From IMG/VR virus record IMGVR_UViG_2162886015_000004, positions 1 to 45,437 of that record: DNA of 45,437 nucleotides; one strand, 5' to 3'. Below the pieces are notes generated by a model. The model saw nothing but the letters and a program-made list of their open reading frames with translations, ran no database searches and was not told where the DNA came from. This document shows, one piece after another, positions 14,890 to 17,984 of this stretch (position 1 is the first letter of the stretch; the number at the start of each line of letters is the position of its first letter). This DNA is from a virus. Position numbers and translations under genes: made by a program.

Positions 14890-14969
14890 CCTTTCCAGGC
14901 GACTTCAATCCCATCGAGCGTGCCATCTGGGCGCGGACGTGGCTGGTGCTGCGGGCGTTTCGGACGTGA
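14886..14969 (+). CDS. Possible 27-aa leader peptide before the C5 methyltransferase
   Basis: The frame MTFPGDFNPIERAIWARTW... starts with an ATGA overlap on the previous gene and ends with a GTGA overlap on the methyltransferase start. If translated it would couple the two genes. The methyltransferase has no good ribosome site of its own, which makes coupling attractive. Evidence is positional only. Confidence 0.4.
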   Translation: MTFPGDFNPIERAIWARTWLVLRAFRT

Positions 14970-15718
14970 ATTACTACAACGAAATCGATCCCTACTGCGC
15001 CGCTTGGCTGCAGAACCTCATGGACGCCGGCCACATCGCGCCTGGCGTCATCGACACACGGAGTATCGAAGATGTCCGACCCGACGAACTCGCCGGATAC
15101 ACCCAGTGCCATTTTTTCGCTGGGCTCGGCGGATGGCCCCACGCCCTGGCCCTTGCCGGATGGCAGGCTGATCGACCCGTGTGGACTGGCTCATGCCCTT
15201 GCCAGCCTTTCAGCGTCGCAGGTAAGGGCGCTGGGACTTCAGATCAGCGGCATCTCTGGCCTGCATGGTTCCATCTCATCGCACAGTGCCGTCCTCCAGT
15301 CATCTTTGGAGAGCAGGTTGCGAACGCGATTGGGCACGGCTGGCTCGATGGAACTTTCGCTGACCTGGAAGGCCAAGGCTACGCCTGCGGGGCGGCCGTA
15401 CTGTCAGCGAGTGCCGCAGATGCACCGCATCGACGTGACCGGCTATGGATCGTTGCCGACGCCGAGTGGAACAAGCAACCACGGCAAGAACCATGTATCC
15501 GGCCGGATCGACGAGTGGGGCGGGAGCAGCAACTATTTCCGTGGGAAGGAGGGTGGCAACGAGCACTTGCCCGGTTTCGAGCTTTGGACAATGGGATACC
15601 CCGCTGCGTGGCGGGAACTGATGCCGCCCGCAACGCGATCGTCCCGCAAGTCGCCGCAGCCTTCATCGAAAGCTACCGCGAAGCCCGAGGCTTGATTGGC
15701 TTGGAGGCTGCGGCATGA
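14966..15718 (+). CDS. C5-cytosine DNA methyltransferase
   Basis: A 250-aa phage-type DNA (cytosine-5) methyltransferase. Motif I is FFAGLGGWPHAL (about 50-61); the catalytic Cys79 lies in GSCPCQPFS; GEQV stands for the ENV motif; RRDRLWIVAD is motif VIII; the C-terminal ARNAIVPQVA is motif X. It modifies cytosine in an unknown site, probably to protect phage DNA from restriction. The GTG at 14966 fits the family N-terminus (NYYNEIDPY); an ATG 29 codons upstream is possible but adds unconserved sequence. Most of the gene is shared with a second reading frame at 15072-15695. Its stop overlaps the helicase start. Confidence 0.92.
   Translation: MNYYNEIDPYCAAWLQNLMDAGHIAPGVIDTRSIEDVRPDELAGYTQCHFFAGLGGWPHALALAGWQADRPVWTGSCPCQPFSVAGKGAGTSDQRHLWPAWFHLIAQCRPPVIFGEQVANAIGHGWLDGTFADLEGQGYACGAAVLSASAADAPHRRDRLWIVADAEWNKQPRQEPCIRPDRRVGREQQLFPWEGGWQRALARFRALDNGIPRCVAGTDAARNAIVPQVAAAFIESYREARGLIGLEAAA
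15072..15695 (+). CDS. Phage protein encoded within the methyltransferase gene in the +1 frame
   Basis: A 207-aa frame fully inside the methyltransferase gene. It does not look like a random shadow. From residue about 65 it has the character of a phage protein type often found beside C5 methyltransferases: LQSSLESRLRTRLG, MELSLTWKAKATPAGRPYCQ, SLPTPSGTSNHGKNHVSGR, IDEWGGSSN, FELWTMGYPAAWRELMPPAT and a Ser-Arg-Lys-rich end. The resemblance is from memory and not checked by search. The methyltransferase frame also keeps all its motifs, so both frames seem constrained. Function unknown. Confidence 0.6.
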   Translation: MSDPTNSPDTPSAIFSLGSADGPTPWPLPDGRLIDPCGLAHALASLSASQVRALGLQISGISGLHGSISSHSAVLQSSLESRLRTRLGTAGSMELSLTWKAKATPAGRPYCQRVPQMHRIDVTGYGSLPTPSGTSNHGKNHVSGRIDEWGGSSNYFRGKEGGNEHLPGFELWTMGYPAAWRELMPPATRSSRKSPQPSSKATAKPEA

Positions 15719-17112
15719 TCGACGCATACCGTCAATTTGTCGAAACCAAGCTGGCAACCGCCGTCGCCACTGGCTTGACTGGTGAGTTCGATTTGTCCAT
15801 CTACTCGCTGATGCCGCATCAGTCTGATCTGACGGCATGGGCATTGCGTCGCGGCCGTTGCGCCATCTTCGCGGATACCGGTCTGGGTAAGACGCGCATG
15901 CAATTGGCGTGGGCGAATGAGATCCACAAGGCGACTGGCCGCGATGTTCTGATTCTGGCTCCGCTGGCCGTGGCTGCGCAGACGGTGAAAGAAGGTGTGG
16001 AGATTGGCGTCACGGTGACGCATTGCCGCGAACTGACAGATGTTCAGCCCGGCGTGAATATCACGAACTACGACCGCATACATAGGTTTGATGCTGGCCG
16101 GTTTGGCGCGGTCGTTCTGGATGAGTCGAGCTGCATCAAGCATCACGACACCAAAACGCTGGCTACGCTGCTGGAAGCGTTCAAGGCAACTCCATTCAAG
16201 CTCTGCGCAACAGCCACGCCAGCGCCGAACGATTGGACGGAGTTGGGCACGCACGCCGAGTTCCTTGGCGTTTGCTCCCGCGTCGAAATGCTGTCGGAGT
16301 ATTTCGTTCACGACGGCGCTGAGACACAAGTCTGGCGGCTGAAGGGTCACGCCCGCGCGCAGTTCTGGAAGTGGGTATCCGGGTGGGGCGCAATGGTACG
16401 CAAGCCGTCCGACCTGGGCCATGACGATGCCGCGTACAACTTGCCGGACCTTACCGTGAGCGAGCACACGGTGGCGTCCACATTGCAGACGGCGGGGCAG
16501 TTATTCGCGTTCGAAGCGCAAACACTCAGTGAGCGCCGCGATGCAAGAAAGAACAGCCTTGCCGCCCGCGTGGCGAAATGCGCCGCATTGGTGAATGCCG
16601 ATCGCGAGCCGTGGATTGTCTGGTGCGACCTAAATGCGGAAGCCGATGCGCTGAAAGCCGCCATTCCGGACGCCGTGGAGATTCGTGGACCGGATGACGC
16701 CGACACGAAAGAGCGCCGGCTTGCTGACTTCGCTGCTGGACGCATTCGGGTGTTGATCACGAAGCCGTCGATCGCCGGGTGGGGTCTGAACTGGCAGCAC
16801 TGCGCACGGATGGCATTCGTTGGCGTGACCGATTCCTTCGAGGCCTATTACCAGGCCGTTCGCCGCTGCTGGCGGTTCGGGCAGCGCCGCGAGGTGTTGG
16901 TGCATATCTTCGCCAGCGAGCTAGAAGGCGCCGTCGTCGCCAATCTGAAACGCAAGGAAGCTGATGCGATGGCCATGTCCGAATCCCTATCCGCTGAAAC
17001 CCGCGACGCCGTGCGCGCCGAAGTATTCGGTTCAGTCCGGCAAAGCAATCCCTACACGCCGCGCAAGCCCATTGCGGCGCCGGCATGGCTCGTTACGGAG
17101 AAAGCTGCATGA
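15715..17112 (+). CDS. SNF2/SF2-type DNA helicase
   Basis: A 465-aa superfamily-2 helicase. Walker A is DTGLGKT with Lys59; the Walker B equivalent is VVLDESS (DESS instead of DEAH); motif III is CATATPAP; a C-terminal motif VI is QAVRRCWRFGQRR. Such ATPases pump along double-stranded DNA and are found in phages next to methyltransferase genes. It overlaps the C5 methyltransferase before it and the second methyltransferase after it as ATGA, so the three form one translational unit that probably acts on phage DNA modification or protection. Confidence 0.9.
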   Translation: MIDAYRQFVETKLATAVATGLTGEFDLSIYSLMPHQSDLTAWALRRGRCAIFADTGLGKTRMQLAWANEIHKATGRDVLILAPLAVAAQTVKEGVEIGVTVTHCRELTDVQPGVNITNYDRIHRFDAGRFGAVVLDESSCIKHHDTKTLATLLEAFKATPFKLCATATPAPNDWTELGTHAEFLGVCSRVEMLSEYFVHDGAETQVWRLKGHARAQFWKWVSGWGAMVRKPSDLGHDDAAYNLPDLTVSEHTVASTLQTAGQLFAFEAQTLSERRDARKNSLAARVAKCAALVNADREPWIVWCDLNAEADALKAAIPDAVEIRGPDDADTKERRLADFAAGRIRVLITKPSIAGWGLNWQHCARMAFVGVTDSFEAYYQAVRRCWRFGQRREVLVHIFASELEGAVVANLKRKEADAMAMSESLSAETRDAVRAEVFGSVRQSNPYTPRKPIAAPAWLVTEKAA

Positions 17113-17984
17113 AGTGCATTGATTCGACCATCGAAGGCAACTGGGCGCTCTACAACGGCGACTGTGTGGAGGTTGTCAGCGGCCTGCCGGAACACTCGGT
17201 CGACTATTCCATTTTCAGTCCGCCGTTCGCCAGCCTTTACACGTATAGCAACAGCCCGCGCGACATGGGGAATTGCCGCACCACGGATGAATTCTTCGAG
17301 CACTTCGCTCACCTAGTACGAGAGCTTCGCCGGGTCATGAAGCCCGGACACAACGTCAGCTTTCATTGCATGCAGCTGCCAACCAGTAAGGTCCGCGACG
17401 GTGTGATCGGCCTGCGCGACTTCCGCGGCGAACTTATTCGCGCGTTCGAGCTGGAAGGCTTCATTTATGCGAGCGAGGTCTGCATCTGGAAAGACCCGGT
17501 CACTGCCATGCAACGCACGAAGGCACTCGGGCTGCTGCACAAGACGATCCGCACAAACGCCACGATGAGCCGGCAGGGCATCGCTGATTACCTGGTGACG
17601 ATGCGCACACCTGGCGATGTGATCGACAAGGTCGATCATGGCGAGGATATCCCAGTCGATGAGTGGCAGAGGCTTGCCAGCCCTGTATGGATGGATATCA
17701 ATCCGAACGACACCCTGCAATACCGCAGTGCTCGCGAACACGACGACGAGCGACATATCTGCCCGCTGCAGCTTGAGGTGATCCGGCGTGGCATACGTCT
17801 CTGGACGAAGCCGGGTGATGTAGTGCTCTCGCCATTCGCAGGCATCGGATCGGAGTTGTATGTCGCGGTCGAATTGCAGCGCCGCGCGGTCGGCGTTGAA
17901 CTGAAAGGCAGCTACTACGAGCAGGCGGTGCGGAACCTTCGCGCTGCATCGAGTCAAGGCAGTTTGTTCGGTGAAGCCGCATGA
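17109..17984 (+). CDS. N4/N6 DNA methyltransferase
   Basis: A 291-aa amino-methyltransferase. Motif IV is SPPF at residues 37-40; SPP(Y/F) is most common in N4-cytosine enzymes. Motif I appears near the C-terminus (SPFAGIGSELYVAVELQRRAVGVE), so the order is the beta class. It uses S-adenosylmethionine and methylates an exocyclic amino group in an unknown sequence. The ATG at 17109 overlaps the helicase stop. No restriction endonuclease gene is nearby, so it looks like an orphan protective enzyme. Confidence 0.88.
   Translation: MKCIDSTIEGNWALYNGDCVEVVSGLPEHSVDYSIFSPPFASLYTYSNSPRDMGNCRTTDEFFEHFAHLVRELRRVMKPGHNVSFHCMQLPTSKVRDGVIGLRDFRGELIRAFELEGFIYASEVCIWKDPVTAMQRTKALGLLHKTIRTNATMSRQGIADYLVTMRTPGDVIDKVDHGEDIPVDEWQRLASPVWMDINPNDTLQYRSAREHDDERHICPLQLEVIRRGIRLWTKPGDVVLSPFAGIGSELYVAVELQRRAVGVELKGSYYEQAVRNLRAASSQGSLFGEAA

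Follow-up and report, generated by a model that had tools for sequence, protein, structure and literature searches.

The locus at positions 14966 to 15718 (+ strand) of the virus record IMG/VR IMGVR_UViG_2162886015_000004, of which positions 1 to 45,437 make up the window analysed here, raises the question of why a C5 cytosine methyltransferase gene also keeps its +1 frame open, and of what the product of that second frame might do. Both reading frames were present where the initial annotation had placed them, the second one running for 207 codons at 15072 to 15695 (+ strand) within a +1 frame that is open for 241 codons from stop to stop. It is uncommon for long genes to be nested on the same strand, and those that are usually encode unrelated proteins. 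Going beyond the initial annotation, we consider it most likely that the two frames each supply a part of a single enzyme; that is, on the strength of sequence comparisons, with a probability of roughly 85%, the locus would encode a single two-chain C5 cytosine methyltransferase consisting of an outer alpha chain and a nested beta chain.

The alpha gene starts with GTG and encodes 250 amino acids, which in profile searches matched PF00145 at 1.9e-15 and phrog_363 at 2.6e-69. The residues of the five motifs that had been claimed for it were found: motif I (HFFAGLGG) at 15110 to 15133, motif IV with the catalytic PCQ (GSCPCQPFS) at 15188 to 15214, motif VI (FGEQV, the EQV form of ENV) at 15305 to 15319, motif VIII (APHRRDRLWIV) at 15422 to 15454, and motif X (ARNAIVP) at 15626 to 15646, all on the + strand. 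In the alpha alignment, motif IV, residues E116 and Q117 of motif VI, R157 and R159 of motif VIII, and N223 of motif X were invariant. The PF00145 catalytic domain with motifs I, IV, VI, VIII and X thus identifies alpha as a C5 methyltransferase, which has motifs I to VIII and X and is without motif IX.

What alpha alone does not contain is the combination, in one chain, of motif IX and a target-recognition domain that is also expected of a C5 methyltransferase. The PF00145 match ended at profile position 161 of 324, and a motif IX profile found this motif in the alpha frame of none of the 79 loci that had been collected with alpha as the query. The AlphaFold2 model of alpha (pLDDT 76, pTM 0.74) has the C5 catalytic fold, with M.HaeIII and M.HhaI as the best PDB matches in a fold comparison, and its pLDDT was below 50 across most of residues 177 to 221, the expected place of the recognition domain and motif IX.

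Selection on the +1 frame was evaluated by counting its stop codons in loci found with the methyltransferase frame alone, with the +1 product or from named phages, plus the window; the collected row that is the window itself (L001) and one on the same contig as another locus (L005, with L002) were left out everywhere. Across 85 of the 88 loci there were 33 stops in the +1 frame, compared to 268.0 expected from synonymous shuffles, and 64 of the 85 had no +1 stop at all; the three loci missed by the motif pattern (L015, L086 and L087) are open in this frame on inspection. The +2 frame of the same 85 loci contained 914 stops, compared to 794.7 expected. In the window gene alone, synonymous shuffles gave an average of 3.6 +1 stops, and zero stops in 0.2% of cases (a chance of 0.002).

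Variation at synonymous sites pointed the same way. The initial annotation had named normal synonymous variation in the methyltransferase frame as a finding that would speak against dual coding, and we found this variation to be strongly suppressed. The mean entropy of fourfold sites in alpha was 1.71 bits before the overlap (14 sites) and 1.26 bits inside it (78 sites), with several sites at 0; variation was near normal to about +80 (positions here and below are relative to the GSCPCQ codons), sharply lower afterwards, and free again (1.92) at the last fourfold site, near the end of beta. Examples of nearly or entirely frozen third positions are the T of Val +129 (55/56), the C of Ala +195 (49/49), the G of Gly +201 (49/49) and the C of Pro +381 (39/39). 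Over 601 pairs of 70 to 97% identity, the ratio of third- to first-position changes was 3.14 before the overlap and, inside it, 2.86 in the N-terminal part, 1.49 in the core and 1.32 in the part with motifs IX and X.

At 15465 to 15539, in the group of window-type loci (4 loci, 6 pairs), alpha codon positions 1, 2 and 3 were changed in 0.493, 0.100 and 0.060 of codon pairs, respectively, with an alpha dN/dS of 2.62 and a +1 dN of 0.077. This is the pattern of +1 coding and not of the methyltransferase frame. Elsewhere in the same group constraint on the +1 protein was weak: the first third of beta (15072 to 15281, about 70 codons) had a +1 dN/dS of 1.10, and 15540 to 15692, where both frames compete, had a value of 1.12.

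It might be argued that codon bias or base composition has left the +1 frame open incidentally and that alpha is the sole gene, since the window is rich in G+C and long spurious ORFs are common in such DNA. This is contradicted by the synonymous shuffles, by the swapped codon-position pattern at 15465 to 15539, by 164 other ORFs, which were taken from 57 of these loci as controls and had 1378 +1 stops compared to 1451 expected, and by nested loci with a G+C content of only 0.41 to 0.46; we have rejected the explanation and give it practically no credence. Dual coding at 14966 to 15718, as the initial annotation had proposed, is confirmed as being far beyond chance, with both frames under selection.

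The initial annotation had also suggested looking for an internal start at 15072. In 57 loci that were less than 90% identical in nucleotides, +1 stops were not depleted upstream of the internal start (113 observed, 92.4 expected); from the internal start to +87 nt there were 4, compared to 38.2 expected, and from +87 to +270 there were none, compared to 79.4 expected. An ATG was present at the place of window position 15072 in 38 of the 57 loci and 18 nt upstream in 19, such that at least one of the two was found in 46 loci, compared to 25.2 expected. The Asp codon that creates the first ATG was GAT in 36 of 43 cases (15.2 expected). In the window, a Shine-Dalgarno-like GGAG (15060 to 15063, + strand) lies 8 nt 5′ of the internal ATG; among the 38 loci with an ATG at this place, 23 had a Shine-Dalgarno match of at least 4 nt, where 20% would be expected, and the Arg codon in the site was AGG in 11 of 37, the background frequency being 8%. 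These comparisons of sequences show that an internal start and its Shine-Dalgarno-like site are conserved; beta translation is predicted to begin there, inside alpha.

A different way of expressing the +1 frame would be programmed +1 ribosomal frameshifting, by which the catalytic half of alpha would be fused to the recognition half of beta with no separate internal initiation. The existence of single-chain relatives, described below, fits this idea, as does the weak constraint on the beta protein before about 15282, which would place the beginning of the functional part of beta near motif VIII. However, the depletion of stops sets in at the internal start, well before 15282, the ATG and the Shine-Dalgarno-like site are retained beyond synonymous expectation, and motif X is still conserved in the alpha frame 3′ of the recognition region, so that we regard frameshifting as quite unlikely and favour separate initiation of beta.

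The identity of the beta product was approached through profile and structure comparisons. Beta matched phrog_1008 at 1.9e-12, and seven of seven other beta proteins tested also matched this family, which, like phrog_363, carries the label "DNA methyltransferase". The +1 product had been described as a phage protein type commonly seen beside C5 methyltransferases: the members of this family are found inside C5 methyltransferases and not beside them. In Mycobacterium phage ShiLan, gp70 is a single chain of 389 residues that matched phrog_363 over residues 1 to 385 and phrog_1008 over residues 196 to 388 (E 2e-61). Because this protein joins the two families in one frame, and because other beta proteins match phrog_1008, the beta family corresponds to the C-terminal half of a C5 methyltransferase, and beta would therefore be predicted, from sequence homology, to supply the target-recognition region and motif IX that alpha lacks.

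Direct profile-to-profile comparison was consistent with this. In hhalign, the nested beta proteins were aligned with the C-termini of single-chain enzymes (probability 98.1, E 1.4e-13), with the LPTP modules and the MG-P-W motif in register, and with the beta chains of partly overlapping loci (probability 99.0, E 5.9e-18). The initial annotation had regarded a lack of +1 homologues outside genes with the same overlap as evidence against its proposal; these single-chain and partly overlapping proteins are such homologues. The putative motif IX of the window (EHLPGFELWTMGYPAAW) is at 15561 to 15611 (+ strand), and residues M174, P177 and W180 of its "MGxPxxW" were invariant over 49 beta proteins. 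In a Candidatus Megaera plasmid enzyme (L096), in which PF00145 spans residues 4 to 334 in a single frame, "RLNPDWVEWLMGYPISW...LGNAVV" was aligned to "KLHPRECARVMGYPDSY...FGNSVV" of M.HhaI 268 to 314 (motifs IX and X), an alignment that is weak alone, at 5.5 bits, and lies within a strong match.

Beta could, on the other hand, be a separate phage protein with another role, such as an anti-restriction or regulatory factor, that overprints the methyltransferase by chance. The structural comparisons leave some room for this view. The AlphaFold2 model of beta was poor (pLDDT 63, pTM 0.28), with mean pLDDT values of 72 to 96 for the blocks within residues 71 to 120, and a fold search of the PDB with this poor model recovered no C5 enzyme; a search of PDB sequences with the beta-alignment profile matched no chain, and Pfam and NCBIfam searches gave no match for the beta of the window and nothing relevant for other beta proteins. 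Three viral fold matches of the beta model had E values below 0.001, all of them phage proteins, one of which is named a methyltransferase. The start region of beta is also poorly conserved. Nevertheless, the C-terminal half that single-chain C5 methyltransferases carry in frame is homologous to beta, and alpha lacks this part. We therefore hold a chance overprint by an independent protein to be very unlikely, and the two-chain enzyme remains our preferred reading.

The breadth of the family was evaluated by assigning 213 loci to architecture classes by means of two profiles, of the catalytic core and of motif IX, the second of which was built from the +1 sequences of the first locus set, such that matches in those loci are partly by construction. 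Motif IX was nested in the +1 frame in 143 loci; in 30 the beta frame starts within alpha and ends past the alpha stop, in 23 a single ORF contains both parts, 8 were of other types, and in 9 motif IX was not found with this profile; among the nested and single-chain assignments of the wider set, 20 were weak (E above 0.01). Using a simple pattern, motif X was found in the alpha frame in 124 of the 143 nested loci, in the +1 frame in 27 of the 30 partly overlapping loci, and in the common frame in 22 of the 23 single-chain loci. The 79 alpha-seeded loci comprised 70 nested loci, 3 cut by the end of a contig, 4 with an extra G and 2 with an interrupted alpha. A scan of bacterial genomes seeded with beta gave, for the best 80 of 150 relatives, 77 that were nested in a methyltransferase, 2 with a shortened alpha and 1 in one ORF. 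The arrangement appears to be old and widespread in phages.

Several individual loci have features of their own. The gene for the single-chain ShiLan gp70 (L092, 1490 to 1948) keeps a stop-free stretch of 153 codons with LPTP modules in its +1 frame, perhaps a relic of the nested form. In a Betaproteobacteria MAG (L271), the alpha frame contains motif IX and a different frame contains motif X, as would follow from a one-base shift, and the alpha gene of a Plautia stali symbiont (L267) contains an in-frame stop 5′ of motif VIII, with beta intact. Existing annotation is inconsistent (L084, L087 and L094): the records of K1G and Redbud name both frames, and that of Pseudomonas phage VB_PaD_phPA-G names beta only.

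Between motifs VIII and IX, the beta proteins consist of blocks of about 30 to 45 residues, most of which start with [W/L]xTP. Splitting by this motif gave one to six blocks in 140 of the 143 nested loci and two or more in 89 of the 143. In single-linkage clustering, in which the largest cluster was loose, similar blocks were found again in varying positions and across the three architectures. The window has one such target-recognition-like module (SLPTPSGTSNHGKNHVSGRIDEWGGSSNYFRG, 15450 to 15545, + strand), which includes the segment of +1-type evolution and is common to three related loci (L002, L004 and L006) and to Paracoccus, Vibrio and Pseudomonas phage loci. It is preceded by a conserved beta core (SLTWKAKATPAGRPYC, 15282 to 15449, + strand), predicted by AlphaFold2 as a helix and a beta hairpin and marked by strong synonymous constraint in alpha. 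From their position, and by analogy with the multispecific C5 methyltransferases of Bacillus phages (SPR, H2), for which PMC8936443 describes several tandem recognition domains per enzyme, we infer that the blocks read DNA.

In one module a run of G was found, with 8 G in three loci (L043, L046 and L050) and 9 G in four (L029, L040, L051 and L054); in the 9-G loci the alpha chain is cut short, and motifs X and IX are in shifted frames. The run may be a phase-variable tract or may result from misassembly.

Taking the loci together, we lean, with some reserve, towards a broader picture: a large phage and prophage family would keep both halves of an enzyme in one stretch of DNA, with the +1 chain as an exchangeable array of recognition modules whose swaps must keep both frames open, while what the modules encode in the alpha frame would merely be tolerated as a passenger; frame changes close to the modules would convert the nested, partly overlapping and single-chain forms into one another, and in one clade the G run may switch specificity on and off in both chains simultaneously.

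For the window, the proposed enzyme would work as follows. Alpha would bind the cofactor and provide the PCQ catalytic site as well as the last helix (motifs I to VIII and X), and beta, initiated at the ATG at 15072 from its own ribosome-binding site, would bring the target-recognition region and motif IX. By analogy with M.EcoHK31I, for which others have demonstrated this experimentally, the two chains would assemble into a single active enzyme, recognising its site through the beta module, with which the phage may methylate its own DNA against host restriction. Downstream, a gene for a SNF2/DEAD-like helicase (15715 to 17109), the start of which overlaps the alpha stop, is followed by one for a second methylase, of the N6/N4 type (17085 to 17981), which overlaps the helicase gene by a few bases; this suggests a DNA-modification cluster.

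If the two-chain reading is right, both frames of one stretch of DNA would yield parts of one enzyme, an arrangement retained across many unrelated phages. This would explain why annotation names now one frame and now the other, and why there is a PHROG "DNA methyltransferase" family without catalytic motifs. It also suggests that cloning with a disrupted hidden frame, as may result from codon optimisation, would leave many annotated phage methyltransferases without activity. Direct tests of subunit design, of module exchange and of the evolution of frames would become possible.

Parts of this arrangement have been recorded before. Internal ORFs of the beta family, PHROG 1008, are annotated in Kagunavirus K1G ("Mte8-like") and Paenibacillus phage Redbud ("g50 internal gene"), and in none of the annotated records examined is beta named as a recognition subunit. 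Searches of open-licence literature, judged by the entries listed, yielded no description of the nested phage family; "Mte8" is mentioned once in passing in PMC5582158, and PMC11855218, which concerns an HNH endonuclease hidden in a different ShiLan gene, gp65, was set aside as not relevant.

Among known enzymes, ShiLan gp70 resembles the window in combining phrog_363 with phrog_1008 and in having LPTP modules, but it does so in one chain with motifs IX and X in frame, its recognition half being in the catalytic frame and not nested. The SPR/H2-type Bacillus phage enzymes, too, are said to be single chains with the modules in the catalytic frame, and they are multispecific, with several tandem modules, whereas the window has only one. 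Another close parallel is M.EcoHK31I, in which, as reported in the 1995 literature, the gene of the small chain lies inside that of the large chain in another frame, as beta lies inside alpha.

M.EcoHK31I (YGGCCR) is a two-polypeptide C5 methyltransferase with motifs I to VIII and X in the larger subunit and motif IX in the smaller, as given in the secondary account PMC3404938, and this distribution is the same as that predicted from sequence for the window, which agrees with the M.EcoHK31I plan in the three features that were compared. The same paper assigns the predicted recognition domain of M.EcoHK31I to the large subunit, in contrast to the modules in the +1 chain of the window, and this placement counts against the two-chain reading of the window. 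The two chains of M.AquI (CYCGRG) also form one enzyme, with motifs IX and X both in the smaller subunit according to PMC3404938; M.AquI thereby resembles the 30 partly overlapping relatives and differs from the window, where motif X is in alpha. Compared to M.EcoHK31I, the family to which the window belongs is large and consists mainly of phage and prophage members, with as many as six modules per nested locus. The two-chain plan was already known from M.EcoHK31I; the new elements are that the putative recognition modules sit in the nested chain, that the family is so broad, and that its architectures form a series.
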